A program made the position numbers and the translations under genes. From contig CAJNBX010000005.1 of assembly GCA_905221115.1 (NCBI GenBank), forward strand, positions 62,001 through 126,000: 64,000 bases of DNA, written 5' to 3'. A model generated the notes under the pieces. The model made no database searches and was not told the origin of the DNA. It saw only the letters and a list, made by a program, of their open reading frames with translations. Numbering within the stretch: position 1 is the stretch's first letter; each line of letters opens with the position of its first letter. Source of the DNA: a bacterium (GTDB lineage: Bacteria; Bacillota; Bacilli; Lactobacillales; Streptococcaceae). Below, piece by piece: positions 1-19,953 of this stretch.

Positions 1-33
1 TGTATCATCAGACATTTTAGTTTATAAACGAGA

Positions 34-87
34 AAAAGCGAACAAGCTAGTCTTCTGAGTGTCAGAAAAGTAGTCTTGTTCGCTTTT
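34..87 (-). terminator. Rho-independent terminator of the FMN reductase gene
   Basis: Bases 34-46 pair perfectly with 75-87. The inner sequence extends the stem imperfectly (cttctga/tcagaaaag). On the minus strand the hairpin is followed by a T-rich run. It lies directly after the stop codon of the reductase gene. Confidence 0.75.
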
Positions 88-97
88 GTTATGTTAG

Positions 98-646
98 TTA
101 CTTGATCGCATTGACCAAGTCTTGAGCTTGTTTTTCAAGTGAATTTTGGACTGATTCTTCGAGAACCAATTTTCCGTCTGCCCAAGCAGAGTCATTGACA
201 CGTGCAGCAGTGAAATCACCAACGACTTGTGTACGGATAAATGGCAAGAGGTCTTTGTAAATAGCGAAGAGTTGATCGTGACCTGCATTGGCTACAGATG
301 ATACGGTGACAAACTTGTCTTGAAGAGCAGAAGCACCACGTGTATCAGACAAGTCAAGGGCGCGAGATAGCCAGTCAAGCAAGTTTTTCACTGTACCAGG
401 GATTGAGTGATTATAAACCGGTGAGAAAATCCAGATAGCATCCGCAGCAAGAACTGCTTCACGAGCAGCCGCCACAGCTGGATGAGTTGGAACTTCCAAA
501 TCTTGGCTGAAGAGAGGAAGGGATGAGTAATCAAGATAGCTAACTTCCGCTTTACCAGCAAGTGCTTTCTCAGCTTCGAGAGCCATTTGGTGGTTGAAAG
601 AACCTTGACGTAGTGATCCGACGATAAATAATACTTTTTTAGACAT
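98..646 (-). CDS. NADPH-dependent FMN reductase family flavoprotein
   Basis: This 182-residue protein has the flavodoxin-like fold of the NADPH_FMN_red family, cytosolic oxidoreductases that use bound FMN to reduce flavins, quinones or azo compounds. The N-terminus VLFIVGSLRQGSFN is the phosphate-binding loop. IWIFSPVYNHSIPGTVKNLLDW is the second flavin-contact motif seen in this family. The length is normal. A good Shine-Dalgarno (aaaggagac) precedes the ATG. The gene is monocistronic, with its own terminator at 34-87. The natural substrate cannot be told from sequence. Confidence 0.88.
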   Translation of the reverse strand: MSKKVLFIVGSLRQGSFNHQMALEAEKALAGKAEVSYLDYSSLPLFSQDLEVPTHPAVAAAREAVLAADAIWIFSPVYNHSIPGTVKNLLDWLSRALDLSDTRGASALQDKFVTVSSVANAGHDQLFAIYKDLLPFIRTQVVGDFTAARVNDSAWADGKLVLEESVQNSLEKQAQDLVNAIK

Positions 647-1063
647 GATGTGTCTCCTTTTTCTTAAATTTCCGAGAACTCTCGTTGTTATAAATTATAT
701 TACAACAAAACAAAAGGACTTGCAAGAAATTTGCTCAAAGATAAGTAAAACTATAAAATTGCCGAAACTCTAGTCATTTGCGACTAGAAAAGCAAGAACT
801 GTTTCCGTTGGATTCTGCTTTTCTTCGATTTTCCATGAGTATTCCTATATTCTCTTGTAATATGATGACATAAGTGCTAAAATAAACAAGAAAACTCGCA
901 ATAGAAACCGCAGAACAGCTATTTTCCGGTATCATTTTATAAATCATTAAAGGAACAATAATGGCATTGAAGAATGCTTCTAAAAAGGGGTGGAGATCAT
1001 GTAAGGCAAAGATTAACAAGTGACGGACAAAAGAAATAATAATACACTTGTTAAGGAGAAAAG
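647..1063. other. Intergenic region between divergent genes
   Basis: This gap separates the reductase (minus) from the MFS gene (plus). A minus-strand -10 candidate (TATAAT, 699-694) lies upstream of the reductase. Its untranslated leader carries a 5-bp-arm inverted repeat at 673-684 (CGAGA-AC-TCTCG), a possible operator or hairpin. A 6-bp-arm hairpin (ctagtc/gactag) lies at 769-786. A minus-strand open frame at 774-1124 encodes a hydrophobic stretch, but it overlaps the MFS start and has no clear ribosome-binding site. I do not call it a gene, although a decayed membrane-protein gene is possible. Confidence 0.5.
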
Positions 1064-2260
1064 ATGTTAATAAGAAATTATCGGAAAAATATTGGCCTGA
1101 TGGCCGGAGTTGAGTTTTTTGCATTTCTAGGGATTACCAGCTTTTGGATTCTCTTTCTTAGTCAAAATGGTATGTCTCTTTGGCAGATTGGACTTCTGGA
1201 AAGTATTTTTCATACGACCAGTCTTCTCTGTGAAATTCCATCTGGTATGTTAGCTGATCGCTATTCCTATAAGACCAACCTTTATTTAAGTCGAATAGCA
1301 GGGATTGTGTCTTCTATTCTCATGTTGGCTGGGCAGGGAAATTTTTGGATTTATGCACTAGCAATGGCTGTGAGTGCCTTGTCTTATAATTTTGATTCAG
1401 GAACAAGCGCAGCAATGGTCTATGACTCGGCTGTAGAGGCTGGACTAAAGGAGCGTTATCTATCCATTTCAAGCTTCCTATCAGGAGTAGCAGAAGGAAC
1501 TCGGTCTTTGGGGACCGTTTTGGCAGGATTTTTTGTCCATGGTCAATTGCACCTGACCTACTATATCATGATTGCGACTTCTATCATAGTTCTTTTCCTG
1601 ATTTGGATGCTGAAAGAGCCTAGTGTCAAGGTAGAAAAAGCTGATAGTGTGACCATGAAACAGATTATTTGGACTGTTAAGGAAGAGTTGGAGCGAAATC
1701 CCATGCTGTTCAACTGGATGATTTTGTCTCAGATTGTCGGAACACTCATGTGCATGTTTTACTTTTACTATCAAAATCAGTTACCAGATTTAAGTAGTTG
1801 GCAAATTTCAGCAGTTATGCTACTTGGAAGTCTCTTAAATATCGTCGCAGTCTATCTAGCGAGTAAGATTGGAAAGAAATATGCTGCCTTGAAGCTTTTC
1901 CCTGTCCTCGTCCTGCTGACTGGAGTCACCTATATGCTGTCCTACTTTGGGACACCTCTAATCTATATTTTGATTTATTTGATTAGTAATGCTCTATATG
2001 CTCTTTTTCAGCCGATTTTTGACAACGATTTGCAAGAGCGCCTTCCAAGTGAAGTAAGGGCAACCATGCTGAGTGTCTACTCTATGATGTTTAGCCTGAG
2101 TATGATTGTCTTCTTCCCACTGACAGGCTGGTTGATTGACCATTTAGGCTTTGTAGTAGCATTTCTTTATCTAGGCTTCTTTTTAGTCATGATTAGCCTT
2201 CTATTGCCTGTATTTTTAGGAAAATTGGCTAAAAAAATGGATGATAAAGTGATTCCATAG
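1064..2260 (+). CDS. MFS transporter, probable drug or metabolite efflux
   Basis: This 398-residue protein has about 12 hydrophobic segments and a short basic C-terminus (GKLAKKMDDK), the standard size of a major facilitator superfamily permease. The loop ...PSGMLADRYSYKTNL... between the second and third helices matches MFS motif A (GxxaDrxGrk). Helix-rich halves are joined by a charged cytoplasmic loop around residues 180-210. The start is fixed by AAGGAG at 1052-1057. No neighbour indicates the substrate. A terminator follows at 2275-2307. Confidence 0.85.
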   Translation: MLIRNYRKNIGLMAGVEFFAFLGITSFWILFLSQNGMSLWQIGLLESIFHTTSLLCEIPSGMLADRYSYKTNLYLSRIAGIVSSILMLAGQGNFWIYALAMAVSALSYNFDSGTSAAMVYDSAVEAGLKERYLSISSFLSGVAEGTRSLGTVLAGFFVHGQLHLTYYIMIATSIIVLFLIWMLKEPSVKVEKADSVTMKQIIWTVKEELERNPMLFNWMILSQIVGTLMCMFYFYYQNQLPDLSSWQISAVMLLGSLLNIVAVYLASKIGKKYAALKLFPVLVLLTGVTYMLSYFGTPLIYILIYLISNALYALFQPIFDNDLQERLPSEVRATMLSVYSMMFSLSMIVFFPLTGWLIDHLGFVVAFLYLGFFLVMISLLLPVFLGKLAKKMDDKVIP

Positions 2261-2274
2261 ATCAAAAAAACTTA

Positions 2275-2307
2275 CGAAAACTTGAGTACTAAGCTCAGGT
2301 TTTTTAA
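2275..2307 (+). terminator. Terminator after the MFS gene
   Basis: AAACTTGAG pairs with CTCAGGTTT across a short loop and is followed by a T run. It lies 15 bp after the MFS stop codon. Confidence 0.65.
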
Positions 2308-2400
2308 TAGGTTGATTTTGGAGCTGTCTTTAATTTTCTCGCTCGGTTTTAATCAAGAAAAATAGATTTACTTTGAAGGGAGAAATAGAATTGGTTGCTT

Positions 2401-2514
2401 ATACTCAATGAAAATCAAAGAGCAAATTAGGAAGCTAGCCGCAGGTTGCTCAAAGCACAGCTTTGAGGTTGCAGATAAAGCTGACGTGGTTTGAATTTGA
2501 TTTTCGAAGAGTAT
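2401..2514 (-). repeat. BOX element (boxC-boxA type with partial boxB)
   Basis: The element starts with atactcaatgaaaatcaaag and ends with ttttcgaagagtat, the two ends of mitis-group BOX repeats. The boxA part contains the ctgacgtggtttgaa core targeted by the classical BOX-PCR primer. The middle keeps only part of boxB. BoxA lies at the right end, so the element is in reverse orientation. Confidence 0.85.
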
Positions 2515-2526
2515 TCTTGCATTCAC

Positions 2527-2555
2527 TTGTAATAAAGCTTAATAGATGGTAAAAT
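2527..2555 (+). promoter_or_regulatory. Promoter of the tseB-aspB-asnS operon
   Basis: TTGTAA at 2527-2532 and TAAAAT at 2550-2555 are 17 bp apart. The expected transcription start falls on the GTG start codon at 2562, so the first gene may be translated from a leaderless mRNA. Confidence 0.6.
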
Positions 2556-2561
2556 AGACGA

Positions 2562-3050
2562 GTGAAAAAAAGACAAAACAAAGCAAAAAATAATCTACTG
2601 TGGCAGTATGGTCTAGGGATGACGATTTTGTTTGTGGTTATCAGTGCTTCCTTTCTGTATCTAGTGTTTCTGAGTATGAAACCATATCAAACAGCTAAAA
2701 GTGAAGGAGAAAAATTAGCTCAGCAGTATGCAGGATTAGAGCAGGCTGATCAGGTTGATTTATACAATGGCTTGGAATCCTATTACAGCGTTCTTGGTCG
2801 TAATAAACAGCAAGAAGCACTTGCTGTCCTGATTGGAAAAGATGACCATAAGATTTACGTTTATCGGCTAAATCAGGGTGTTTCACAAGAAAAAGCAGAA
2901 GCTGTTTCGAAGGAAAAAGGAGCTGGCGAGATTGACAAGATTATCTTTGGTCGTTATCAAGACAAACCAATCTGGGAAGTCAAGTCAGGCTCTGATTTTT
3001 ATCTAGTAGATTTTGAAACAGGAGCATTGGTCAATAAGGAGGGCCTATGA
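2562..3050 (+). CDS. TseB/YpmB-like cell-wall elongation regulator (DUF5590)
   Basis: This 162-residue protein has one N-terminal transmembrane helix (about residues 14-38) and an extracytoplasmic domain with repeated beta-strand patterns of the DUF5590/PepSY-like family. The B. subtilis homologue YpmB (TseB) interacts with a class A/B penicillin-binding protein and tunes lateral wall growth. The gene order ypmB-aspB-asnS is the same in Bacillus, which supports the assignment more strongly than the modest sequence signature. The start is GTG with no Shine-Dalgarno and lies at the predicted +1. An in-frame ATG at 2619 would truncate the membrane anchor, so I reject it. The gene overlaps the next by 4 bp (atga). 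Confidence 0.75.
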   Translation: MKKRQNKAKNNLLWQYGLGMTILFVVISASFLYLVFLSMKPYQTAKSEGEKLAQQYAGLEQADQVDLYNGLESYYSVLGRNKQQEALAVLIGKDDHKIYVYRLNQGVSQEKAEAVSKEKGAGEIDKIIFGRYQDKPIWEVKSGSDFYLVDFETGALVNKEGL

Positions 3051-4225
3051 AACTATCCAACCGTGTTTTAGAAATGGAAGAAAGTGTCACTTTAGCTAGT
3101 GATGCGAGAGCAAAAAAATTAAAAGCTCAAGGTAAGGATGTCCTTTTCTTGACCTTGGGACAACCAGATTTTCACACCCCTGAAAATATTCAGGATGCAG
3201 CAGTTAAAGCTATTCGAGAAGGACAGGCTTCCTTCTATACAGTAGCTTCAGGTCTACCAGAATTAAAAGCTGCAGTGAATACCTACTTCGAGCGCTACTA
3301 TGGCTATTCTGTCGCAAGTAATGAGGTTACCTTTGCCACAGGTGCCAAGTTCTCCCTCTATACTTTCTTTATGGCTGTAATCAATCCTTTAGATGAGGTT
3401 ATTATTCCAACTCCATACTGGGTTAGTTATGGAGATCAGGTCAAGATGGCAGAAGGGATTCCAGTTTTTGTTCAAGCTAAAGAAGACAATGATTTTAAAG
3501 TCACGGTGGATCAACTAGAACTAGTTAGGACAGATAAGACAAAGGTTTTGGTTCTCAATTCACCATCTAATCCGACTGGTATGATTTATACTCGTGAAGA
3601 ATTACTAGCTATCGGAAATTGGGCCGTTGAGCATGACATTCTGATTTTAGCTGATGATATATACGGTCGCCTTGTTTATAATGGAAATGAATTTGTTCCA
3701 ATCTCAAGTCTATCAGAAGCAATTCGTAAGCAAACCATTGTTATCAACGGTGTATCTAAGGCCTATGCCATGACGGGTTGGCGAGTTGGTTATGCGGTAG
3801 GTGATCCTGAAATCATTGCAGCTATGAGTAAATTGACGGGACAAACAACTTCTAACCTAACTGCTGTTTCACAATATGCAACCATCGAAGCCCTAACTGG
3901 ACCGCAAGATTCTGTGGAAGTTATGCGTCAAGCATTTGAAGAACGTCTCAATACCATCTATCCACTCTTGTGTGAAGTCCCTGGTTTTGAAGTGGTCAAA
4001 CCGCAAGGGGCCTTCTATCTCTTCCCAAATGTCAAAAAGGCCATGGAGATGAAAGGCTATACGGATGTGACTGACTTTACAACAGCTATTCTTGAGGAAG
4101 TTGGTTTGGCACTCATAACAGGAGCAGGTTTTGGAGCGCCAGAAAATGTCCGCCTCAGCTATGCGACAGACCTAGACACGCTTAAAGAAGCAGTTAAACG
4201 CTTGAAAGCATTTATGGAAAAATAA
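3047..4225 (+). CDS. aspB: Aspartate/aromatic aminotransferase, PLP-dependent class I
   Basis: This 392-residue enzyme has the fold-type I aminotransferase signatures: [12 protein letters not shown] (PLP and substrate contacts), ADDIYGRL (Asp to the pyridine nitrogen, Tyr to the PLP oxygen) and [15 protein letters not shown] with the Schiff-base lysine. It should transfer amino groups between aspartate (or aromatic amino acids) and 2-oxoglutarate, and so supplies aspartate for the asparagine/asparaginyl-tRNA branch. Its start codon overlaps the stop of the upstream gene, and asnS follows 22 bp later, so the three genes form one operon. Confidence 0.9.
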
Positions 4226-4247
4226 AAGAAAAAGAAAAGGAAAAATA

Positions 4248-5591
4248 ATGACAAAACGTGTAACGATTATTGATGTAAAAGACTATGTTGGTCAAGAAGT
4301 GACAATTGGCGCTTGGGTTGCCAACAAATCAGGAAAAGGGAAAATCGCCTTCTTGCAATTGCGTGATGGAACAGCCTTCTTCCAAGGTGTGGCCTTTAAA
4401 CCAAACTTTGTAGAAAAATTTGGTGAAGAAGTAGGACTTGAGAAGTTTGATGTCATCAAACGCTTGAGCCAAGAAACGTCTGTTTATGTGACAGGGATTG
4501 TCAAAGAAGACGAACGTTCTAAGTTTGGCTATGAATTGGACATTACAGACATCGAAGTGATCGGTGAATCTCAAGACTACCCAATCACACCAAAAGAACA
4601 CGGAACAGACTTCTTGATGGACAACCGTCACTTGTGGCTCCGTTCTCGTAAGCAAGTAGCGGTTATGCAAATCCGTAACGCGATCATCTATGCAACTTAT
4701 GAGTTCTTTGACAAGAACGGCTTCATGAAGTTTGATAGCCCAATCCTTTCAGGAAACGCGGCAGAAGATTCAACAGAACTCTTTGAAACAGACTACTTCG
4801 GAACCCCAGCTTACTTGAGCCAATCAGGTCAGCTTTACCTAGAAGCAGGAGCTATGGCCCTTGGCCGTGTCTTTGACTTTGGTCCAGTATTCCGTGCTGA
4901 AAAATCAAAAACGCGCCGTCACTTGACTGAGTTCTGGATGATGGACGCAGAGTACTCATACTTGACTCACGATGAGTCACTTGACTTGCAAGAAGCTTAT
5001 GTAAAAGCTCTTCTACAAGGTGTTCTTGACCGTGCGCCTCAAGCATTGGAAACCTTGGAACGTGATACAGAACTCTTGAAACGCTACATTGCAGAGCCCT
5101 TCAAACGTATCACTTACGATCAAGCCATTGACCTCTTGCAAGAACATGAAAATGATGAAGACGCTGACTACGAACATCTTGAGCATGGTGATGACTTTGG
5201 TTCACCACATGAAACTTGGATTTCAAACCACTTTGGTGTGCCAACATTTGTCATGAACTATCCAGCAGCCATCAAGGCCTTCTACATGAAACCAGTTCCT
5301 GGGAATCCAGAGCGCGTGCTTTGTGCAGACTTGCTTGCTCCAGAAGGTTACGGAGAAATCATCGGTGGTTCTATGCGTGAGGAAGACTACGATGCCCTTG
5401 TTGCTAAGATGGATGAACTTGGCATGGACCGTACAGAGTATGAATTCTACCTTGACCTTCGTAAATACGGTACAGTTCCTCACGGAGGATTTGGTATCGG
5501 TATCGAGCGTATGGTAACCTTCGCAGCAGGAACAAAACACATCCGTGAAGCTATCCCATTCCCACGTATGTTGCACCGTATCAAACCGTAA
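4248..5591 (+). CDS. asnS: Asparaginyl-tRNA synthetase
   Basis: This 447-residue class II synthetase carries an N-terminal OB-fold anticodon-binding domain (residues 1-110, starting [20 protein letters not shown]). The class II core includes motif 2 ([21 protein letters not shown]) and motif 3 ([11 protein letters not shown]). Lack of an inserted GAD-type domain and similarity to bacterial AsnRS rather than AspRS support asparagine specificity. It charges tRNA-Asn in the cytosol. Codon use is strongly optimised, as expected for a highly expressed gene. A terminator follows at 5598-5622. Confidence 0.95.
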
Positions 5592-5597
5592 GAATAG

Positions 5598-5622
5598 AAA
5601 AACGCCTATGTGGCGTTTTTTT
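5598..5622 (+). terminator. Terminator of the asnS operon
   Basis: AAACGCC (5600-5606) pairs with GGCGTTT (5612-5618) and is followed by seven T. It lies just past the asnS stop codon. Confidence 0.9.
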
Positions 5623-5703
5623 CTATAGAAAGCTCTAGAAACGAAAGGAAATATTATCAGGTTTTCAAAATCGGCTCTTGATAATATGCGCTTTTCGTGA
5701 AAA

Positions 5704-5810
5704 TATAGTGTATTGAATCTAGAACAGTACACTGTGTCTGCTAAAATATTTCTAGAAATTAATTTGCCTTTCTTAATCAGTTTGTTCATATTTTATTTTA
5801 ATACACTATA
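5704..5810. repeat. RUP element (107 bp)
   Basis: The element is exactly 107 bp, the defined length of the repeat unit of pneumococcus. Its ends form an inverted repeat (tatagtgtatt and aatacactata) and it starts and finishes with TA, the IS630-family target. RUP is a non-autonomous miniature element thought to be moved by the IS630-Spn1 transposase. No transposase gene is present here. Confidence 0.88.
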
Positions 5811-6161
5811 TTTACTTCCTTTTCCTATAAAATTGAGTTTTTGATAGAAACATATTATTAGTTGTTTAGAATAGAGTTTCGTATCTTAGTACATTGATCT
5901 TATTGTTTAAAAACTGATGTATGTACTATTTTCTTCAAGGAAGTATTAGATTGAAACCATAAATATATATAAGCATGAAACTTGAATTAATAATAGTGGC
6001 ATGATACAATATTAAGTGATATTGATAATTATTGGGCAACCTTTTTTAAAATGATAACCTTTTAATATTACTAAAAAATTTAAGGGGGGGGGGCTTTTTA
6101 TTTGTCTGTATATTTCAATTCAATATTAAAAAAATATGCATAAAGGAGGTTGTGACTCTAA
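5811..6161 (+). promoter_or_regulatory. AT-rich promoter region with G10 tract upstream of the adhesin
   Basis: This 350-bp region is strongly AT-rich except for ten consecutive G at 6084-6093. One promoter candidate is TTGTCT (6102-6107), 16 bp, TATTAA (6124-6129). A second -10 candidate, TATATT (6109-6114), would place its -35 inside the G run. The Shine-Dalgarno AAAGGAGGT (6142-6150) lies 11 bp before the ATG. I see no gene here. A change in the length of the G tract would shift the spacing or upstream contacts of the promoter. Confidence 0.6.
6084..6093. repeat. Homopolymeric G10 tract
   Basis: Ten uninterrupted G residues lie 68 bp upstream of the adhesin start codon in otherwise AT-rich DNA. 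Such tracts are prone to slipped-strand mispairing. No other G or C run of this length was noticed in the window. Confidence 0.95.
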
Positions 6162-9100
6162 ATGAAGGGTAAACAACAAGATTTTAGAACGGAAAAGTAT
6201 ATTCGTTACGGTATTCGTAAATACAGTTTTGGAGCAGCATCAGTAGCGATTGCGGCTGGTTTGATGTTCTTAGGAAATGGAGCAGTTTTAGCTACTGAAC
6301 AAAATCCAGTTTCAGACTCTAAAGAAAATATTCAAAAAGTAGAAAATTCTTCTCCAGAATTAGGAGAAAGTAATATCCAGTTGGTTGGAAAGACAACTGA
6401 AACACTTAAGAAAGAAGAAGTTAAAGTAAATAAGCCACTTCTTGAAGCGAGTATTTCAAATTTAGAGACTGCATTATCAAATGCTAAGTATGCGGATGCC
6501 TCAGTTGTAGCCAATGTTCGTGAAGCTTTAGCTACTGCGAAAGCTGTTTTGGCAAATGAAGCTGTCAAGCAAGAAGAGGTAAATGTTCAAAAAGAGATTC
6601 TTTCTGCATTGGGAACAGTTGTAACTGAATCAAACAAACTTGGATTAGAGAAAGAACAGGCTGATAAAGATAAGGTAGCAAAAGAAGAAGCACAAAGAAA
6701 CGCTACACCAACAGAAAAAGTTCTTTCAGAAGCTAAATCGGCACTCGATAAAGTTTCATCAGAAGCAGATGTAACCAATACACTCGCTGCTACAGAACTT
6801 CGTAAGAAAGAAGTAGCAGCAGAGAATCGAGCAGCAATTGAAGCAGCGGTGGCTAAGAACCAAGCTGTACTTAATGAATCAAAAGTACTTTTAGCTGACA
6901 AGAGTGTCACAAAGGAACAAGTAGATGCCCAATTATCTCGCTTAAATGAATCAATTCTTGCAGTTTATAGTGAACTGAAAAAAGCAGGAATTGGTCGTGA
7001 TGGGAAATTTGCTGTAGCGTTGGCAGCACAAGATTTTTATGCTGAAGGATCTACAAGTACTACTCATGCTTCAGAAATAAATGCAACAATTCATACAGGA
7101 TCAGATACATATACAATTCCACACCAAGAAATTAAACTAACCAAAGGGGCTGGAACTGATACTTCAGGCCTAGAAGTAGTTGTGTATTCTAACCAACGTG
7201 ATGGTGCTGAAACAAATGCTGGAAATGGTATGTATACTGAACAAGGTGGTGCAACTGGTCATAATAATAAAGGTCGTGTTGACTATCCTTTAACACCAGA
7301 GGCTGCTAAAAAGTTAGCAGAAGAAGCTCCTTTATGGAGAAATAAACTTCGTGCAGATGGTTCAAGGATTTCCAATGCAGCAACTGCAATTTATTCAGCT
7401 GGTGGTGGATATGAATATCTAGCTACCGAAATCTACAGATATGGATACGAACAAGGAATTGATCGCGTATATATTAAAGGATTAAAAGATCGTATTGCTG
7501 TTACAGAGGCTGCTAAGCAAGCTGGATGGAGTCTTACTTCTGTAACACCAACTAACCTTGTTCCTGGTTTAGCATATGATGAGGCTACAGATACTATTCA
7601 AGGGGTGGTCTCTGCCAATATTGAAAACGGGGTATATGATTTACGTTTTGATGTAACTGCAAGCCATACTGACGGTCGTTCAGTAACTTTTCGACTTCAG
7701 AATTTACGTGCTGGCTGGGTAGGATGGCAAGACACCACACCTCCTAAAATAAAATCTGATTCTGCAACATACAAACGTACAGTAGGTGATGACGCCAATA
7801 TCAATATTCGATTTAATGATGCTTCGGGAGCTGGTGTTATACCAGGAAATAACGCTGGAAACTATAGTTATACAACTGCTGAAGAAAAAGTAATTACAGT
7901 ACGTAAAAATTTTTCACGCAGTGTAACAGGAATTTCAGGATACAATACTACAGGAACTGCATTAGATGATTCAAAAGTATTAATTCCAGGTACTAGCTAC
8001 ACAGTTTCAAATAGTACTTCTGAAGAGCAAGCTGCCAATCAAACAAATATGGGTAAAGGAGTTATTGGTGGCAAGCTTACTGAGGCAGGGATATATACAG
8101 TCTCTGTATTTGCTAAAGATTACGATAAACTGGCTAATAATAATGTTTGGAACCAATCAGGTCAAGAGGCACATGCTTCTCTCACAGTTGTGGTGAAACC
8201 CAAAGTTGAGGTTCAAAACGTTGAAACTTACTCAACTTCAGTACCAGTTAAAATATCTAAGGGTGCAACAAGTGCGAAAGTAACGATGCCAGATGGAACT
8301 GTAACAAATCTAAAAGCGGTTAACGGTAAGTGGCTTGTAGATAGTGGCTCAACTAATACAGCTGTTACTGAAAATCAAGAACTAGGTGCCGTAGATTCTA
8401 GTACAGTCTTTAACATTCCCGTCACATCAGAAGCGACAGCAAAAGTTGGTGTGGATAACATTACTGTTGAAGCATCGTCTGAAAACGTTAAGGGAACTTT
8501 CTTACGTGAACAAGTTGAATTAACTGGAACTGACGGTCAAAAACACATCGCAAAATTAAATAGTACATCTGGTCATTGGGAACTTCCAGCTGATTATGCT
8601 GAAGTAAAGACACCAAATGGTGATGGTACTACAACGTGGACAAAACGCGAAGTGTATACTGAAGCGCAACAAGATGGAGCAATGAAATTCTACATCTATG
8701 AGTATACTCGTCAGCTAGATATAAATGGTAAAGTAACAAGTGTTGATACACCAACTCGCCCACTCACTGTATATGCTTCTCATAATACTAGTCAAGCAGG
8801 TGATGGAATGTCAGTAACAATCACTTATGATAAACATTCCAATACCTGGTCTTCATCAGATGGTACAGAAGTGACTGCTACCAAATTGGGTGACAATTCT
8901 TGGGAAGTGCTTACTAAATCAGGATTTGGTGGTGTTATTAGCGGTACGATTGCAACAAATTCGGATGTTGCAACTGTAGTTAATACAAAACCAATAGCAA
9001 GCTCTAAAGATTATACTTCTACTAAAGGAACTGCGGTAGATCTCCGTAATGAAGCAAAAGCTGCAGTGACAATTTCTGATACAGAAGATACTAAGTACGG

Positions 9101-12100
9101 AAAAACAACTTACATTACTCGTATTACAGTAACATCTCCTTCAGGAGTTCAGAAGGTTTATGACACTAAACAAGATGCAAACAACTACAATCTTGCTAGT
9201 GGTTATACACTGAATGAAGTGGGAGTCTATACAGTAACAGTTGATGTTATTGATAGTAATGGTAATTACACAACAGATGCTACAATAGGTGGAACTGAAT
9301 CTGGTGTGGATCATGGGGCTGGCTCATCAACAGCTACAACTACTTACCACATTACAGTAACAGACACAATTGAAGGTCACGATGCTACATCATCTGATAT
9401 CCAAGGAGCTACTCAAACGGGAACACCAACCTTTACTTCTGTAGGTGACGGTTCAACTATTTCACCAAGTGCAACATCACCAGCTAAGTTGGTTGCAACT
9501 GACGGTAGTCTAGTTGAGACTTTAACAGTTGTAAATGAGGGAACTTATACAATTGACCCAACAACAGGTGTTGTAACCTTTAAACCACTTGCAACATTCA
9601 CAGGGACAGCTACTCCAGTAACTGTCAAACTAACTGCAATTCTAGGTACAGATACTAACAATGCTAATATTACTGCAACTGCGACAGCTACATATACACC
9701 AACAGTAGTTCCAGTAAAACCAACCGCAGTAGCGTCTCAAACAACTGGACCTCAAGGGAAAGCCCAAACTTCTGCTATTAAGTTTGACGTAGCAGACACA
9801 GATGATACAACTGTAAACTTTGCTAAAGGAACAGTTGCTATTGATGCAAATACAACAAAATCTGTTGATCTTAATACAGCATCAGTAACTCTTCTTAATG
9901 CAGACGGTGTTGCTGTAACATCTGTAACAGTTGCAAATGAGGGAACTTATACACTGGATACAGCGACAAATGTTATTACTTTCCAACCAGTCGCAACATT
10001 CACAGGAACTGTTACAAAACCAATTAGTGTACGTATTGCGGATGCGAATGGTACTACTGCAACAACTACTTACACTCCAACTGTCACAGATGTCACTATG
10101 ACAGCTGAAAATGCAGCATCTACAGACGTTCAAGGCAAAACACAAACTGGAACACCAGAATTTGAAACGTCAGATTCATCAGTAACAATTGCGAAACGTC
10201 AGTTGCTTGATCCCACAACTATACAACCAACTACTAGTGTTACAATCGCAAATGAAGGAACATACACAATTAATCCAACAACAGGTGTTGTAACCTTCGT
10301 ACCAGTTCCAACATTTACTGGAGAAGGGACAGGAGTAACTGTTCAAGCAACAGATTCAAATGGTGAGACAGCAACAGCTACTTATAAACCAACTGTAACA
10401 CCAATCACGATTACTGGTGAAAATGTAACATCTAAGAATATCCAAGGTGAACAGCAGTCAGAAACACCACTATTCTCATCATCAGATGATAGTGCTCCAG
10501 TGTCAAATTACAAACTTGTAGATCCAACTACTGGAAATACAACGACTGCAACTTCAGTGACTGTTGAAAATGTTGGAACATATACAATTGATTCAACAAC
10601 AGGCAAAGTAACATTCAAACCAGTTGCAACTTATACAGGAACACCAGCATCAGTAACAGTTCAAGCATCAGCAACTATTACTAATGAAAAAGGTGAATCA
10701 ACAGAAATCACAGGTACAGCTGCTTATACTCCAACAGTAGTTCCTGTAGTCCCAACAGCTAAAGAATCAGCTACAGCTGGTAAGCAAGGTCAAGCGCAAA
10801 CGTCACAAATTATTTTTGATACTCCTGATACAGATGCTACAACATTGAACTTCGCTAAAGGAGAAACATCTGAAGTATTAGGTGAAGATGGCCAACCAAA
10901 ATCAGTAGCTCTTGATAAGAGTACTTTGACACTTCTTGATGCGAACGGAAATGCTGTAACTACAGTTACGGTTGATGGTGAAGGAACTTACACTCTTGAT
11001 AAAACAACTAATGTCATTACATTCCAACCAACTGAAGAATTCACAGGCAAAGCTACACCAGTACGTGTACAAATTGCAGATATCAACGGTACTACTGTAA
11101 CAACTACTTACACTCCAACTGTTGTTGCTGAAGATGGAACGGTCATTGTTGAGTATAAGGATGAAGAGGGTAATATTATCTCTCCTTCAACAACTCCAGT
11201 AAATAACGAAAAAGTGACGACTCCCTTCACAACTGAACCAAAAGAAATTTCTGGTTACACTCTTGTTAAAGTGGTAACAACAAACGGTCAGGTTGATGAA
11301 GGTACTAAGAAGGTTTCAGGTAAGGTTACAAATGATACAACTACTGTAACATATACTTATAGAAAGAATGTTCAAACAGCAACTATTTCTTACTATGATG
11401 TGACAACTGGTGCAGAAGTTGCTATAGATTCAGCTAAAGTTCCAGCAGCAGCTGTTGAGACAGTAGAAGGTGCTTATAACGGTGCTATCGATTTTGTTAA
11501 TCGTGAAAAAGCAATTGCAGCTCTTGAAAAAGCTGGATATACGTTAGTAGAAGATGGTTTCATTGTAGCAACGACAGCTGATAAGCTTTTTGATAACGAC
11601 ACAGCGGTGAATCAAAACTTCACGGTAACAGTTAAACAACGTGTGGAACCCGTGACTCCAAATAATGAGAAACCTGTTCCAGGACAACCAGTGGATCCAG
11701 AAAATCCAAACTCACCTGTATGGCCAAGTACTGCAGAAAATCTTGAGTTAACTAAAACAGTTACTCGTACCATCAAGTACCGCTATAACGATGAGAATGG
11801 TAAAGAAGTAACAGCTGATAAAGTTCAAACAGTAACCTTCACACGTAGCGCAAGCATTAACTTGGTAACAGGAAATGTGGAATATACTGACTGGTCAGCA
11901 GCACAAACGCTTGAGACAGTAGTTTCTCCAGAAGTAGCTAATTATACTTATGATAAGAAAACTGTTACAAGCCTTGAGGTAACAAACGAGTCAATTGATA
12001 GTACAGTATACGTTATCTATAAACCAGTAGCACCAACTACAACACCTGCTACATCAACTGATATCCAAGGTAAGGCACAGACAGGTACTCCAACATATAA

Positions 12101-14933
12101 ACATGCTGATGGAACTGAGTTGAAACCAACAACAGATAATCCAGCTAAGTTCGTTGGAACTGAGGAAACAACTATCCCAGCTACTAAGGATGGTAAGACA
12201 GTTGGTACATATACAATTGATCCAACTGGTACAGTAACCTTCACACCAAATAAAGACTTCGTTGGAACACCAGACCCAGCTAAAGTAGTTGTAACAGATC
12301 CTACAAATGGTACAACTGTTGAGTCAAGTTACACTCCAACTGTAACACCAGTTACACCAACAGGTGTGGATACAGGTTCTACAGGTCCTAAGAACACTCC
12401 TCAATCTGGTACACCAACATTTGTACCTGGTCATAAAGATGTACCAATGGACAATACTGTTCCTGCTACATTTGAAGATGATACAACAAGTAAAACAGTT
12501 CCAAACGAAGGAACGTATACTGTTGATGCAACAGGTAAGGTAACCTTCACACCAAATAAAGATTTCGTTGGAACTGCAACAGGAGTAACTATTGTACGTA
12601 AAGATACTAATGGCACTGTAGCGAAAGCTAAGTATACACCAACTGTTTATGAAGTGAAGTCTGATACACAAGTTGCGACTGTAACTTACAAAGATACTAA
12701 CGGAACAATTCTTGGTGAAGTGGATATCCTTCAAGGTGATTCTGGTTCTGAAATGAACTACTCTACTGCAGAACGTATCAACGCACTGAAAAAACTTGGC
12801 TACGAACTTGTGTCTGACGAGTTTACAAAAGCTGATGGCAGCAAGCAATCATTTGATAATGATACAAAAGCTATTCAAAAATTTGTTGTTACTGTTCAAC
12901 CACGCCTTGTTCCAGTTATTCCAAGTGATGTGACACCAGTTCCAGGTCAACCAATTGATCCAGAGGATCCAAACTCACCAGTATGGCCTGAAAGCGTTAA
13001 GGAATTGACAACTTCAGAAGAAGTAACTCGTACAATTACTTATGTTGATGGAGATGGTAAAGAGGTTACTACTTCTGTGACTTCATCAGTTACATTTACT
13101 CGTGATGCTAAGGTAAACTTGGTGACAGGTGAAGTTACTTACGGCGAATGGAAAGAAGCTACAACTGATGTTCTTTCTGGTAATAAACTTCCACTTGTTA
13201 AAGGTTATATTGCAGTAAGTGGAGATATTGAGGCATCTACCAAGGATCAAACTGTTAAGGCTGAAGACAAAGACATCATTCAAAAAGTTGTCTATAAGAA
13301 ACTGGGAGCCTGGATTCCAAACGTGCCAGGACAAACAAATCCTCCACGTATTGATTATCCAAATGATCCAAACGGTGATCCAACTAAACCGGGTGTACCA
13401 ACAGAAGATATTGTAATTCCTTATGTTCCAGGTTACATTCCAAGAGATAAAGATGGAAATCCGTTGAAACCAGTTGATACAGAAGATCCAACAAAAGGTT
13501 ATGTGCCACCAACATTACCAACTGATCCGAGTCAAGATACACCAATCAACTATACGAAGATTACAACGTCTTATGTGACAGTTGATCCAAATGGTAAAGA
13601 AGTATCTATTCCAAATTATCCAAGAGAAGACGGCGAACAACCTAAGAAAGATATCCCAGGTTATCGCTTCGTAGAAACGAAGAAACTACCAAATGGAGAT
13701 ACAGAACACGTCTACGAAAAAGTAAATACATTCTTCAAAGATAAAGAAGGTAATGAGATTCCGAACTATCCAAGTGAGCCGGGCACAGTAGATAAAAAAG
13801 ACATTCCAGAGTACAGATTCGTAGAAGCGAAGAAACTACCAAATGGAGATATAGAACATGTCTATGAAAAAGTGAATACATTCTTCAAAGATAAAGAAGG
13901 TAATGAGATTCCGAACTATCCAAGTGAGTCGGGCACAGTAGATAAGAAAGACATTCCAGAGTACAGATTTGTAGAAACGAAGAAACTTCCAAATGGTGAC
14001 ACTGAACACGTTTACGAAAAAGTAAGTACATTCTTCAAAGATAAAGAAGGCAATGAGATTCCGAAATATCCAAGTGAGCCAGGCACAGTAGATAAGAAAG
14101 ACATTCCAGAGTACAGATTTGTAGAAACGAAGAAACTTCCAAATGGAGATGTAGAACATGTTTACGAAAAAGTGAATACATTCTTCAAAGATAAAGAAGG
14201 TAATGAGATTCCGAACTATCCAAGTGAGCCAGGCACAGTAGATAAGAAAGACATTCCAGAGTACAGATTCGTAGAAACGAAGAAACTACCAAATGGAGAT
14301 GTAGAACATGTCTACGAAAAAGTGAATACCTTCTTCAAAGATAAAGAAGGTAATGAGATTCCGAACTATCCAAGTGAGCCAGGCACAGTAGATAAGAAAG
14401 ACATTCCAGAGTACAGATTCGTAGAAACGAAGAAACTGCCAAATGGAGATACAGAACATGTCTACGAAAAAGTAACACCACCAGCTCCAACACCTTCACC
14501 TGTTCCTCAACCAAATCCAGGTAAGCAAAATACAACTATTTGGACTGATGAGAATGGAAATCCATTGAAACCAACTGAGCCAGGTTCTAAAGAACCGGGA
14601 AGAATTCCAGGTTACGAATATGTGAAGACTGTGACAGGTTCAAATGGAAATATCAGACATATCTTCCGCAAAGTTGAGATGCCAACTCCAACACCGGTTG
14701 AACCAGTACAACCAGTTTCTCCACAAGAGCCAGAGACCCCAGAGCAACCAGTGACTCCAGAAATGCCAACAGTACCTGAGCAACCAAAACAATCAGCAAC
14801 ACCTAAATATGTTGATGGTCAAAAAGAATTGCCAAATACTGGTACAGAAGCTAACGCTAGTCTTGCAGCGCTTGGACTTCTTGGAGCCCTAGGTGGATTT
14901 GGACTTCTTGCTCGCAAGAAAAAAGAAGACTAA
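6162..14933 (+). CDS. Giant LPXTG surface adhesin with CshA-type and mucin-binding-type repeats
   Basis: This 2,923-residue protein starts with a YSIRK-type signal peptide (YGIRKYSFGAASVAIA, cleavage near residue 44). A helical Ala/Glu/Lys region (about 70-285) follows, then a non-repetitive putative ligand-binding region (about 290-1070). Five CshA-type fibril repeats (about 1070-1655) carry the recurring pattern DIQGxxQTGTPxF ... TYTPTV. Next come a MucBP-like block (1659-1737), a mucin-binding-type block (to about 1953), two more CshA-type repeats, and a second mucin-binding-type block (to about 2390). Five 50-residue repeats (2521-2770), a Pro-rich wall segment, LPNTG (2890-2894), a hydrophobic helix and a KKKED tail complete it. 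Sortase A should anchor it to peptidoglycan. It probably forms surface fibrils that bind host glycoproteins or other bacteria; the ligand is unknown. The gene is monocistronic, with its own terminator. Confidence 0.88.
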   Translation: MKGKQQDFRTEKYIRYGIRKYSFGAASVAIAAGLMFLGNGAVLATEQNPVSDSKENIQKVENSSPELGESNIQLVGKTTETLKKEEVKVNKPLLEASISNLETALSNAKYADASVVANVREALATAKAVLANEAVKQEEVNVQKEILSALGTVVTESNKLGLEKEQADKDKVAKEEAQRNATPTEKVLSEAKSALDKVSSEADVTNTLAATELRKKEVAAENRAAIEAAVAKNQAVLNESKVLLADKSVTKEQVDAQLSRLNESILAVYSELKKAGIGRDGKFAVALAAQDFYAEGSTSTTHASEINATIHTGSDTYTIPHQEIKLTKGAGTDTSGLEVVVYSNQRDGAETNAGNGMYTEQGGATGHNNKGRVDYPLTPEAAKKLAEEAPLWRNKLRADGSRISNAATAIYSAGGGYEYLATEIYRYGYEQGIDRVYIKGLKDRIAVTEAAKQAGWSLTSVTPTNLVPGLAYDEATDTIQGVVSANIENGVYDLRFDVTASHTDGRSVTFRLQNLRAGWVGWQDTTPPKIKSDSATYKRTVGDDANINIRFNDASGAGVIPGNNAGNYSYTTAEEKVITVRKNFSRSVTGISGYNTTGTALDDSKVLIPGTSYTVSNSTSEEQAANQTNMGKGVIGGKLTEAGIYTVSVFAKDYDKLANNNVWNQSGQEAHASLTVVVKPKVEVQNVETYSTSVPVKISKGATSAKVTMPDGTVTNLKAVNGKWLVDSGSTNTAVTENQELGAVDSSTVFNIPVTSEATAKVGVDNITVEASSENVKGTFLREQVELTGTDGQKHIAKLNSTSGHWELPADYAEVKTPNGDGTTTWTKREVYTEAQQDGAMKFYIYEYTRQLDINGKVTSVDTPTRPLTVYASHNTSQAGDGMSVTITYDKHSNTWSSSDGTEVTATKLGDNSWEVLTKSGFGGVISGTIATNSDVATVVNTKPIASSKDYTSTKGTAVDLRNEAKAAVTISDTEDTKYGKTTYITRITVTSPSGVQKVYDTKQDANNYNLASGYTLNEVGVYTVTVDVIDSNGNYTTDATIGGTESGVDHGAGSSTATTTYHITVTDTIEGHDATSSDIQGATQTGTPTFTSVGDGSTISPSATSPAKLVATDGSLVETLTVVNEGTYTIDPTTGVVTFKPLATFTGTATPVTVKLTAILGTDTNNANITATATATYTPTVVPVKPTAVASQTTGPQGKAQTSAIKFDVADTDDTTVNFAKGTVAIDANTTKSVDLNTASVTLLNADGVAVTSVTVANEGTYTLDTATNVITFQPVATFTGTVTKPISVRIADANGTTATTTYTPTVTDVTMTAENAASTDVQGKTQTGTPEFETSDSSVTIAKRQLLDPTTIQPTTSVTIANEGTYTINPTTGVVTFVPVPTFTGEGTGVTVQATDSNGETATATYKPTVTPITITGENVTSKNIQGEQQSETPLFSSSDDSAPVSNYKLVDPTTGNTTTATSVTVENVGTYTIDSTTGKVTFKPVATYTGTPASVTVQASATITNEKGESTEITGTAAYTPTVVPVVPTAKESATAGKQGQAQTSQIIFDTPDTDATTLNFAKGETSEVLGEDGQPKSVALDKSTLTLLDANGNAVTTVTVDGEGTYTLDKTTNVITFQPTEEFTGKATPVRVQIADINGTTVTTTYTPTVVAEDGTVIVEYKDEEGNIISPSTTPVNNEKVTTPFTTEPKEISGYTLVKVVTTNGQVDEGTKKVSGKVTNDTTTVTYTYRKNVQTATISYYDVTTGAEVAIDSAKVPAAAVETVEGAYNGAIDFVNREKAIAALEKAGYTLVEDGFIVATTADKLFDNDTAVNQNFTVTVKQRVEPVTPNNEKPVPGQPVDPENPNSPVWPSTAENLELTKTVTRTIKYRYNDENGKEVTADKVQTVTFTRSASINLVTGNVEYTDWSAAQTLETVVSPEVANYTYDKKTVTSLEVTNESIDSTVYVIYKPVAPTTTPATSTDIQGKAQTGTPTYKHADGTELKPTTDNPAKFVGTEETTIPATKDGKTVGTYTIDPTGTVTFTPNKDFVGTPDPAKVVVTDPTNGTTVESSYTPTVTPVTPTGVDTGSTGPKNTPQSGTPTFVPGHKDVPMDNTVPATFEDDTTSKTVPNEGTYTVDATGKVTFTPNKDFVGTATGVTIVRKDTNGTVAKAKYTPTVYEVKSDTQVATVTYKDTNGTILGEVDILQGDSGSEMNYSTAERINALKKLGYELVSDEFTKADGSKQSFDNDTKAIQKFVVTVQPRLVPVIPSDVTPVPGQPIDPEDPNSPVWPESVKELTTSEEVTRTITYVDGDGKEVTTSVTSSVTFTRDAKVNLVTGEVTYGEWKEATTDVLSGNKLPLVKGYIAVSGDIEASTKDQTVKAEDKDIIQKVVYKKLGAWIPNVPGQTNPPRIDYPNDPNGDPTKPGVPTEDIVIPYVPGYIPRDKDGNPLKPVDTEDPTKGYVPPTLPTDPSQDTPINYTKITTSYVTVDPNGKEVSIPNYPREDGEQPKKDIPGYRFVETKKLPNGDTEHVYEKVNTFFKDKEGNEIPNYPSEPGTVDKKDIPEYRFVEAKKLPNGDIEHVYEKVNTFFKDKEGNEIPNYPSESGTVDKKDIPEYRFVETKKLPNGDTEHVYEKVSTFFKDKEGNEIPKYPSEPGTVDKKDIPEYRFVETKKLPNGDVEHVYEKVNTFFKDKEGNEIPNYPSEPGTVDKKDIPEYRFVETKKLPNGDVEHVYEKVNTFFKDKEGNEIPNYPSEPGTVDKKDIPEYRFVETKKLPNGDTEHVYEKVTPPAPTPSPVPQPNPGKQNTTIWTDENGNPLKPTEPGSKEPGRIPGYEYVKTVTGSNGNIRHIFRKVEMPTPTPVEPVQPVSPQEPETPEQPVTPEMPTVPEQPKQSATPKYVDGQKELPNTGTEANASLAALGLLGALGGFGLLARKKKED
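13722..14471 (+). repeat. Five tandem 150-bp repeats inside the adhesin gene
   Basis: The period is exactly 150 bp (50 residues). Units start at 13722, 13872, 14022, 14172 and 14322. Each contains the motifs FFKDKEGNEIP, DKKDIPEYRFVE and KKLPNGDxEHVYEK. A diverged sixth unit precedes them (from about 13560) and a related, more distant unit follows (14526-14680). The high nucleotide identity suggests recent expansion. Confidence 0.95.
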
Positions 14934-14947
14934 AAACTCATAGTTTT

Positions 14948-14978
14948 TGAGAAGATGATTTGTCATCTTCTTTTTTTA
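14948..14978 (+). terminator. Terminator of the adhesin gene
   Basis: AGAAGATGA (14950-14958) pairs with TCATCTTCT (14963-14971), followed by a run of T. Confidence 0.9.
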
Positions 14979-14993
14979 TTTTGGTGTTTTTAC

Positions 14994-15022
14994 TTGCGTA
15001 AAAAATTGTTTTCTAGTATAAT
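14994..15022 (+). promoter_or_regulatory. Promoter of rpsF-ssb-rpsR
   Basis: TTGCGT (14994-14999) and TATAAT (15017-15022) are 17 bp apart and precede the ribosomal protein operon. Confidence 0.75.
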
Positions 15023-15030
15023 AGTTTATT

Positions 15031-15082
15031 GTGAGCGAACCTCACTTACCCCTTGCAAAGTCTTGGGGTCATTAGACCAAAA
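15031..15082 (+). promoter_or_regulatory. Probable S6:S18 ribosomal protein leader
   Basis: The untranslated leader of rpsF holds a hairpin GTGAG-cgaac-CTCAC (15031-15045) and a second stem ACCCC/GGGGT (15048-15052 with 15065-15069). An alternative GGTC/GACC pairing (15067-15078) reaches towards the ribosome-binding site. Many bacteria control this operon by binding the S6:S18 complex to a leader that mimics its 16S rRNA site. The position and structure fit, but I matched it to the family from memory only. Confidence 0.5.
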
Positions 15083-15096
15083 GGAGGAACATATCA

Positions 15097-15387
15097 ATGG
15101 CTAAATACGAAATTCTTTATATCATTCGTCCAAACATTGAAGAAGAAGCTAAAAACGCTTTGGTAGCACGTTTTGACTCTATTTTGACTGACAACGGTGC
15201 AACTGTTGTTGAATCAAAATCTTGGGAAAAACGTCGTCTTGCATACGAAATCAAAGATTTCCGTGAAGGACTTTACCACATCGTTAACGTTGAAGCAAAC
15301 GACGACGCAGCTCTTAAAGAGTTTGACCGTCTTTCAAAAATCAACGCTGACATTCTTCGTCACATGATCGTCAAAACTGACGCGTAA
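15097..15387 (+). CDS. rpsF: 30S ribosomal protein S6
   Basis: This 96-residue protein begins [13 protein letters not shown] and shows the RNP-like ferredoxin fold of S6, including [21 protein letters not shown]6 binds the central domain of 16S rRNA as a heterodimer with S18, which is encoded two genes downstream. A strong AAGGAGG precedes the ATG. ssb follows 11 bp later. Codon use is that of a highly expressed gene. Confidence 0.97.
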
Positions 15388-15398
15388 GAAGGTAAACT

Positions 15399-15869
15399 AT
15401 GATTAACAATGTTGTACTTGTAGGGCGTATGACACGTGACGCTGAGTTGCGTTATACCCCATCAAATGTAGCAGTTGCGACTTTTACTCTTGCAGTAAAC
15501 CGTACATTTAAGAGTCAAAATGGCGAACGTGAGGCTGATTTTATCAATGTCGTTATGTGGCGCCAACAGGCTGAAAACCTTGCTAACTGGGCTAAAAAAG
15601 GCTCACTTATCGGGGTGACAGGTCGTATACAGACTCGTAGTTACGATAACCAGCAAGGACAACGTGTCTACGTGACAGAGGTCGTGGCTGAGAATTTCCA
15701 AATGTTGGAAAGCCGTAGCGTGCGTGAAGGTCATACAGGTGGAGCTTACTCTGCACCAACTGCAAACTATTCAGCACCTACAAATTCAGTACCAGACTTT
15801 TCACGTGATGAAAATCCATTTGGAGCAACAAATCCATTGGATATTTCAGATGATGATTTACCATTCTAA
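15399..15869 (+). CDS. ssb: Single-stranded DNA-binding protein
   Basis: This 156-residue SSB has an N-terminal OB fold (residues 1-105; [40 protein letters not shown]). A flexible low-complexity linker follows. It ends in the acidic tip DISDDDLPF, which recruits repair and replication proteins. It coats single-stranded DNA in replication, repair and, in competent streptococci, recombination of incoming DNA. Its place between rpsF and rpsR is conserved in Firmicutes. Confidence 0.97.
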
Positions 15870-15900
15870 TGGACAAGTAAAATTATAAAGGAGAAAAAAC

Positions 15901-16140
15901 ATGGCTCAACAACGTCGTGGCGGATTCAAACGCCGTAAAAAAGTTGATTACATCGCAGCAAACAAAATTGAATATGTTGATTACAAAGATACTGAGCTTC
16001 TTAGCCGTTTCGTTTCAGAACGTGGGAAAATCCTTCCTCGTCGTGTAACAGGAACTTCAGCTAAAAACCAACGTAAAGTAACAACAGCTATCAAACGCGC
16101 TCGCGTAATGGCTTTGATGCCTTTCGTAAACGAAGATTAA
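15901..16140 (+). CDS. rpsR: 30S ribosomal protein S18
   Basis: This 79-residue basic protein has the S18 signatures [38 protein letters not shown] and [22 protein letters not shown]. It pairs with S6 on the 30S platform. It is the last gene of the operon and is followed immediately by an array of terminator hairpins. Confidence 0.97.
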
Positions 16141-16168
16141 AAAAGAGGTCCGGGTGGACCTCTTTTTC
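16141..16168 (+). terminator. Terminator of the rpsF operon
   Basis: AAAAGAGGTCC pairs with GGACCTCTTTT across a GGGT loop, with a T run. It begins right after the rpsR stop codon. Two further terminator hairpins follow as back-ups. Confidence 0.9.
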
Positions 16169-16267
16169 ACGAGCCTTGAAATGAGAGAGCGAGTTGGGGT
16201 CCAGTGGACCTCTTTTTCATGAGCTTTAAAACAAGAAAGCGAATTAAGACCCGGTTGGGTCTTTTTT
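16141..16267 (+). repeat. Tandem terminator-hairpin array A, after rpsR
   Basis: Three rho-independent terminator hairpins (16141-16167, 16197-16218, 16246-16267) are separated by two copies of a second hairpin. That hairpin has a roughly 14-base A-rich loop (cttgaaatgagaga, tttaaaacaagaaa) closed by GAGC/GCGA arms. The period is about 51 bp. The same alternating units occur at 45642-45945 after nadE. I do not recognise the family. Confidence 0.8.
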
Positions 16268-16299
16268 CACTAGATAGTTTTTTTCTGACCTTGGCGTGC

Positions 16300-16305
16300 T
16301 ATAAT
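16300..16305 (+). promoter_or_regulatory. Extended -10 promoter of the GNAT gene
   Basis: TGC-TATAAT forms an extended -10 element that gives a leader of about 28 nt. No good -35 is present, which is usual for TGn promoters. It sits on top of an in-frame upstream ATG and thereby decides the start at 16340. Confidence 0.65.
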
Positions 16306-16339
16306 GGTAATAGAAAGAGTAAAGGTGGGTAAGTCAAAG

Positions 16340-16843
16340 ATGAATTGTACGATTAGAAATATGATTAAGTCTGATATTGAATCCTTATCTCATGGCTTTA
16401 TGAATCAAGGTTGGCCTGGTAGAGAGGAAATTTTGGCTAGATATTTTCTGGAACAGGAAAGTGGGGAGAGAGAAGTCTTAGTTGCAGAGATTGATGGTGC
16501 TGTAGCGGGCTACGTTACCATTTTGCCCTCTGCTAAACATGGTCCTTTTGCAGAAGTCTATCCAGAATTATCAGATTTTAATGTGTTTGAGCCTTTTCGA
16601 AATCAAGGGATTGGGAGTCAACTGCTAGAAGAAGCAGAAAATCGAGTTAAGTTTTTTTCAGATAAAGTGACGTTGGGTGTAGGTTTGCACTCAGGCTATG
16701 GACCTGCCCAGAGATTGTACATCAAACGAGGCTATATTCCAGATGGTTCAGGCGTTTGGTATCGAAATCAGCCGTTGGAAATGAATGCAACTAGCCAAAA
16801 TAATGATGATTTAGTTTTATACTTATCCAAGGACTTACAATAA
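16340..16843 (+). CDS. GNAT family N-acetyltransferase
   Basis: This 167-residue GNAT has the acetyl-CoA loop pattern FRNQGIGSQLLEEAE (about residues 95-110), with beta strands AEIDGAVAGYVTI before it and a C-terminal LYIKRGYIPDG segment. The substrate is unknown. I place the start at the ATG at 16340, preceded by aaaggtggg. An in-frame ATG at 16304 overlaps the -10 hexamer TATAAT (16300-16305, extended TGC) and cannot be the translated start. The gene stands alone after terminator array A. Confidence 0.82.
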   Translation: MNCTIRNMIKSDIESLSHGFMNQGWPGREEILARYFLEQESGEREVLVAEIDGAVAGYVTILPSAKHGPFAEVYPELSDFNVFEPFRNQGIGSQLLEEAENRVKFFSDKVTLGVGLHSGYGPAQRLYIKRGYIPDGSGVWYRNQPLEMNATSQNNDDLVLYLSKDLQ

Positions 16844-16922
16844 AACTGGAAACTCTTTGAAAATAGGGGATTTAGCTACTTTATGGTATAATGGAAAGAG
16901 TTAGATTGAAAGAGGTAGTGAG

Positions 16923-18323: not shown

Positions 18324-18324
18324 G

Positions 18325-18687: not shown

Positions 18688-18704
18688 TTAGAAATCTATA
18701 TTCT

Positions 18705-18733
18705 TTGTAATGTTAATATAAATTTGCTATAAT
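18705..18733 (+). promoter_or_regulatory. Promoter of the methyltransferase gene
   Basis: TTGTAA (18705-18710), 17 bp, and TATAAT (18728-18733) with an extended TGC. The expected transcription start is the A of the ATG at 18740. Confidence 0.75.
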
Positions 18734-18739
18734 AGGACC

Positions 18740-19849: not shown

Positions 19850-19870
19850 CAGTTATTTTGAAGAATTGTG

Positions 19871-19925: not shown

Positions 19926-19953
19926 AAGAGAATAAACAAAATGAGGTATTATC

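Follow-up and report, generated by a model that had tools for sequence, protein, structure and literature searches.

A length-variable G tract upstream of a streptococcal adhesin gene, a candidate slippage-prone element of a dispersed and probable mRNA leader module

Variation of surface proteins through slippage in runs of G is best known from Neisseria, Campylobacter and Moraxella. In the one strain of Moraxella catarrhalis described, uspA1 mRNA was low at 8–10 G and high at 11–12 G, with a 21-fold difference between 10 and 12 G (PMC7302503), and for Neisseria porA, opc and fetA the homopolymer length is described to switch the surface protein (PMC2791445). Among streptococci, GCAGA repeats are reported to be combined with attenuation at pil1 of S. 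gallolyticus (PMC3894217), transcripts at the T tract of S. pyogenes Spy1336/R28-Spy1337 are reported to be altered between 9T and 10T (PMC7098570), and mga of group A streptococci is named as having a C run in a review (PMC11868660). For paired blood/CSF isolates of S. pneumoniae, 121 non-coding mutations were reported without clustering (PMC5361624), so that this close relative gives no sign of such switching in that comparison. In the main text of a comparative genomic study of S. mitis and its kin (PMC6722419), the terms 'homopolymer', 'poly-G' and 'frameshift' are absent and 'phase variation' occurs once, concerning restriction-modification. Among the matches listed from the open literature (best 10 to 20 per query) there was no report that treats the poly-G tracts of mitis-group streptococci as a set; the novelty of such a set is provisional, since the scope was the best-ranked open papers, with most subscription papers outside it.

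The window, i.e. the whole 64-kb stretch of DNA that was analysed, contains ten consecutive G, 68 bp before the ATG (6162) of a large surface-protein gene (Table 1). A preliminary description of the window had located this tract correctly and had taken the gene for a 2,923-residue adhesin, which was confirmed by a YSIRK signal, 7 CshA repeats, MucBP-type domains, 7 SSSPR-51 repeats and an LPXTG anchor; relatives of the protein with solved structures include CshA and mucus-binding proteins. The gene order asnS – adhesin – rpsF-ssb is kept in a single orientation. With the G10 tract, a homopolymer of slippage-prone type is placed at an LPXTG adhesin gene, and it is the sole run of more than 5 G in the window, the second-longest being 5. 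After dinucleotide shuffling, a mean of 0.67 G8 matches was expected versus 3 (overlapping) observed, a number reached in 6 of 100 shuffles; by composition itself, a chance origin of G10 is unlikely but not impossible. It is disfavoured because relatives keep the tract between flanks that hardly vary, while its length changes.

Table 1 Features of the adhesin locus (positions in the window)
Feature	Position	Strand	Basis or remark
asnS (asparagine--tRNA ligase), upstream gene	4248..5591	+	NCBIfam NF003037 620 bits, TIGR00457 472 bits, both above cut-off
Terminator-like hairpin 3' of asnS	5598..5620		Placed on the − strand by the scan; on the + strand, arms then T run (inspection)
Predicted −35, TTGAAT	5982..5987	+	Score 12.0, intergenic best; also in plain consensus scan
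Predicted extended −10, TGA-TACAAT	6002..6010	+	Diverged copies: TATAAT or TAATAT in the corresponding place
Predicted 5' leader of adhesin mRNA, about 145 nt	6017..6161	+	Inferred from predicted start
Possible leader hairpin, 6058-6065 (CCTTTTAA) with 6080-6087 (TTAAGGGG)	6058..6087	+	
G10 tract	6084..6093	+	Sequence; length among relatives 6-12
CTTTTTATTTG	6094..6104	+	Conserved, abuts 3' end of tract; (nearly) identical in A, A' and B copies
Ribosome binding site, AAGGAGGTT	6143..6151	+	Sequence, by inspection
Adhesin gene, 2,923 aa, YSIRK / CshA-repeat / MucBP / SSSPR-51 / LPXTG	6162..14933	+	
rpsF (ribosomal protein S6), downstream gene, then ssb	15097..15387	+	NCBIfam TIGR00166 above cut-off

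Two further elements were noted around the gene. Within the SSSPR-51 coding region (window 13643-14473), a 150-bp unit is repeated 5.5 times in tandem at a 92% match, a possible second source of variation for the same adhesin. Between asnS and the adhesin promoter (window 5701-5813) lies a MITE-like element of 113 bp whose terminal inverted repeats are 17 nt long and 94% complementary, and a 23-base piece of its left end gave zero exact matches among 281 loci.

Of the genomes compared, G001 was nearest to the window, with 36% of sampled words in common. A module TTTWA-Gn-CTTTTT, with n of 6–12, precedes surface-protein genes in mitis-group genomes. In the scan of named genomes, TTTAA-G7+-CTTTTT matched 77 stretches, including 15 distinct Streptococcus sites; the 15 Streptococcus stretches were read, and the other 62 of the 77 were assumed to be chance matches of the gapped pattern. 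A YSIRK-type start was found in the downstream open frame at 14 of the 15 sites, and the fifteenth (L074) is truncated by the end of its sequence piece; the same contig, represented as L003, shows a YSIRK-type start. Across 284 genomes of the genus, the pattern occurred at 14 sites in 11 genomes (reversed-pattern control, 1 hit), and a looser pattern, covering shorter tracts and the sister form TTTTA, at 24 sites in 13 of the 284 genomes with n of 6–12 (reversed control, 0). Four types of copy were distinguished, namely A, to which the window belongs, A', A'' and B, a sister family; a looser group C has the AT-rich block 5' of the tract in common and the 3' part only partly. Streptococcus sp. 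2342 (L079/L090) and Streptococcus sp. k-402 (L094/L098) each carry two module copies on a single contig, ahead of different YSIRK genes.

At the 27 distinct A- and B-type sites n ranged from 6 to 12, counted from assemblies in which homopolymers may be off by one or so. Tract length, compared among relatives in this way, was not constant: n was unequal in 29 of the 36 pairs of copies at least 93% identical, and in 4 of 4 pairs at least 98.5% identical. By sequence comparison, the G tract is the length-variable part of the module. As the data are assemblies of different strains, this describes lability on an evolutionary scale rather than switching inside a clone.

Promoters were scored with simple, untrained sigma-A weights. 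When 5921-6161 was shuffled 300 times, 3 shuffles attained the score of the best intergenic candidate, TTGAAT-17-TACAAT (5982-6010), and this candidate was among the 6 promoter sites of a plain consensus scan of 5300-6500, versus 4.4 expected by chance. The corresponding upstream promoter ranked first in all 16 A-type copies, with the predicted start 65–67 nt 5' of the tract, and a separate promoter, TTGATT-17-TATAAT, scored highest in 11 of 11 B-type copies, with the predicted start at −30; at 3 A-type and 6 B-type sites these distances were taken by inspection and then agreed by scan. In a scan of 24 sites, the C copies were less uniform (predicted starts at −24, −23, −24 and −141; both C'' copies at −88). 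Six diverged A'/A'' copies matched the window at 5–6 of 6 bases of the −35, 2 of 2 of the TG and 4–5 of 6 of the −10, and at only 3–4 of the 14 spacer bases. The adhesin transcript is predicted to start at about 6017. Since the best promoter, which ends 73 nt 5' of the tract, and this start lie upstream, the G10 tract is placed at about +68; most likely it sits in the 5' leader, not in the promoter.

On balance we favour the reading that G10 is a slippage-prone contingency tract in the adhesin mRNA leader, where it would tune expression as one copy of a dispersed module that is found ahead of several YSIRK surface-protein genes of mitis-group streptococci. The tract would lie about 67 nt past the predicted transcription start and 68 nt ahead of the start codon. 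Replication slippage, presumably also within a clone, would alter the number of G (6 to 12 among relatives), and this number would likely set the amount of adhesin. The first G's of the tract would form the 3' arm of a hairpin by pairing with a pyrimidine-rich 5' arm, with the U-rich stretch CTTTTTATTTG directly after; tract length would then shift the register of the hairpin and how far it stands from the U stretch, which may change premature termination, RNA stability or ribosome access. An adhesin expression switch as such is likely. Hairpin attenuation is put first among the possible mechanisms, by analogy with pil1 and with family B, but tentatively and at clearly less than even chances; its main rival would be action through RNA stability or translation.

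The 8 pairs of the A/A' helix are possible in all 8 distinct sequences counted (64/64 cells). No covariation was found in this helix, all 500 shuffles reaching the observed values, and the helix has no covariation power because its 3' arm never varies. The hairpin of the window folded no better than shuffles (z +0.7); z was −1.0 to +0.7 in the A family (7 regions tested), −1.8 to −2.7 in A' (6 regions), −0.5 in A'' and −3.0 to −4.0 in the B family (10 distinct regions). The B helix (8 sequences) was paired in 80 of 80 cells, with one compensatory change of an A-U to a U-A pair; its covariation score exceeded all slid versions and was reached by 28 of 500 shuffles, and the count of pairs with both sides changed (1) was reached by 229 of 500. 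By predicted energy, the leader hairpin is convincing in family B and unconvincing in the window itself. As a terminator tail, the U stretch scored 2.86 in the window versus 5.09 for the asnS tail, and related C'' copies are without it. Hairpin plus U stretch, the candidate counterpart of a pil1-type terminator hairpin, has a strong fold in B and a weak one in the window. A strong intrinsic terminator in the window leader, tried as a candidate, was unsupported by fold z and U-tail score. A scan of window 1-20000 against Rfam at gathering cut-offs gave zero hits, i.e. no known RNA family.

The leader tract might instead act mainly on translation or RNA stability, through sequestration of the ribosome site, access of RNases or an sRNA on the G run (as in the RepG/tlpB type), and not on termination. 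By inspection, the arm rich in pyrimidines (window, AACCTTTT; relatives, AACCTCTT) could pair with AAGGAGGTT too, whereas across natural alleles there is no simple relation between n and how accessible the ribosome site is predicted to be; this explanation is regarded as doubtful. Its simplest form, sequestration of the ribosome site, was rejected, as predicted accessibility was without a clear trend with n over these alleles.

G8+ runs were counted in 199 of the 284 genomes and their context was followed in 12 related genomes, 11 of which carry the module, G041 being added for its ten G8+ runs. A surface signal had to lie within 420 nt and share the strand of the G run. After hand correction, 57 of the 76 G8+ tracts in the 12 genomes were at genes for secreted or surface proteins: the script output comprised 57 with a surface signal (48 upstream, 9 in-gene) and 19 without, and the removal of a false match (L213) and the addition of a missed one (L216) left the total at 57/76. 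PspA-like and other secreted signals were matched by patterns devised once the loci had been viewed; the YSIRK and KxGKxW patterns are general and alone accounted for 45 of the 76. YSIRK genes number 207 in the 12 genomes, with a same-strand footprint of about 0.34% of sequence, and 43 G8+ tracts lie at them (32 of 65 when the 11 A-type tracts are excluded); the binomial figures are extreme, and the clustering is given as description because the genomes were chosen mostly by motif. Some of the remaining tracts lie within what we take, from the translations, to be a miaA-like gene or glycosyltransferase-like frames.

A reading without any switch, in which the leader conserves the tract for its structure and the length differences come from assembly error or neutral drift, is unlikely. 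Assemblies are error-prone at homopolymers, but G runs of 6–12 are retained at the 27 distinct sites, long G runs are concentrated at surface genes, and copies that are 96% identical differ in tract length by up to 5.

G tracts in these streptococci occur at three positions, in the −35/−10 spacer, in coding sequence and in the leader, as in the window. The first arrangement, TTGACA-flank-Gn-TATA, was found in 44 of 284 genomes (reversed control, 3). The spacer analysis took in 51 of 53 rows, after removal of two overlapping duplicates, and excluded 16 of these 51 as not strictly flank-Gn-TATA; the 35 strict cases had total spacers of 15–22, with 17 of 35 at 17–18, and over 25 distinct flanks the flank length and G number compensated each other (r −0.45, permutation p 0.015). 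These promoters span many Streptococcus species (L160, L182, L195, L200, L226 and others), and some presumably serve PspA-like genes. In-gene G tracts were seen in surface genes including YSIRK genes (L157, L178, L186, L214, L220; L185, L191, L198; L223), some of which we take for sialidase-like and serine-rich-type surface genes; depending on the strain, the frame at such tracts is open or shifted. At L156, L210 and L211, G11–G13 stands between a divergent regulator, presumably Rgg-like by its sequence, and a secreted or surface gene, a layout like that of R28-Spy1337 in S. pyogenes. At seven further loci (L184, L194, L201, L212, L219, L221, L225), G9–G11 is located 122–123 bp 5' of a YSIRK gene, directly after GGAC and shortly 5' of TATAAT, where the tract may set the spacing of a −35-like TGGACG to the −10.

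The spacer design thus exists in the genus, with G number and flank compensating as described, and the preliminary description had placed the tract of the window in a comparable role, with a −35 in the tract or just after it. For such a switch, the tract would overlap or abut the −35 of a promoter with the −10 TATATT at 6109, and its length would alter core promoter geometry as at Neisseria porA/opc. However, TTGACA is absent 5' of the tract in the window, and GGGGGG-17-TATATT, with the −35 inside the tract, scored 3.0 versus 12.0 upstream. TATATT is not retained in the A' and A'' copies, in which the sequence diverges past the conserved stretch 3' of the tract. The best pair with a −10 3' of the tract scored only 3.9 versus 12.0, and the tract lies outside the −35/−10 spacer of the best predicted promoter. 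We therefore regard a promoter switch in the window as very unlikely. A start within the G run, with a TAAAAT-like −10 seen by eye just 5' of it, was dropped as well, because B and A'' do not share this hexamer. Attenuation of the pil1 type, in which repeat number shifts a leader-peptide frame and for which S. gallolyticus provides a precedent (PMC3894217), has a negligible probability here, no frame from ATG, GTG or TTG crossing the G10 tract in the window, and tract-crossing frames occurring in 11 of 28 rows from 27 distinct sites (L097 and L276 being one site), only 3 of them A-type and none with a ribosome site by the pattern used.

The earlier proposal of a slippage-controlled adhesin in a mitis-group streptococcus is hence retained with regard to a length-variable tract (6–12 G) tied to the adhesin, and is given up with regard to its promoter placement; the observation itself was right and part of a larger set, and its promoter reading is probably wrong. 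In a wider and rather speculative reading, which we consider improbable as a whole, mitis-group streptococci would possess a poly-G phasome with three control modes, namely promoter-spacer, coding-frame and a new leader class with an attenuator retuned by slippage without a leader peptide, the G run of the leader class being a slipping 3' hairpin arm set against the U stretch.

If slippage control holds true, simple slippage in G runs would let commensal mouth streptococci vary many of their surface proteins, and the tract genotype read from sequence could predict the adhesins displayed by a population. The leader version would add a mode distinct from promoter spacing and frame shifting, and consensus assemblies of mitis-group genomes may conceal mixed populations at G tracts.

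Compared with the known systems, the T tract at R28 is likewise a homopolymer in intergenic DNA, next to the gene for a surface protein of a streptococcus (PMC7098570), but it is a T run between divergent genes, whereas the window has a G run with a same-direction neighbour, within a predicted leader. The tracts of Neisseria porA, opc and fetA are described between −35 and −10 (PMC2791445), unlike that of the window, which is downstream of the predicted promoter; by analogy, the streptococcal TTGACA-Gn-TATA promoters look like the true counterpart of the Neisseria spacer tracts. Like pil1, the window has a slippage-type repeat, close to a possible hairpin, in the predicted leader of a streptococcal gene for a surface structure (PMC3894217), yet the pil1 repeats are pentanucleotides within a leader-peptide gene, whereas the window has no leader peptide over the tract, and its hairpin is, unlike that of pil1, a weak terminator candidate. 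In uspA1, a poly-G of similar length is located upstream of the ORF of a surface adhesin (PMC7302503), as in the window, although its host is Gram-negative, and length is reported to set mRNA there. By these likenesses, uspA1 and, less exactly, pil1 of S. gallolyticus may serve as the functional precedents for the tract of the window.
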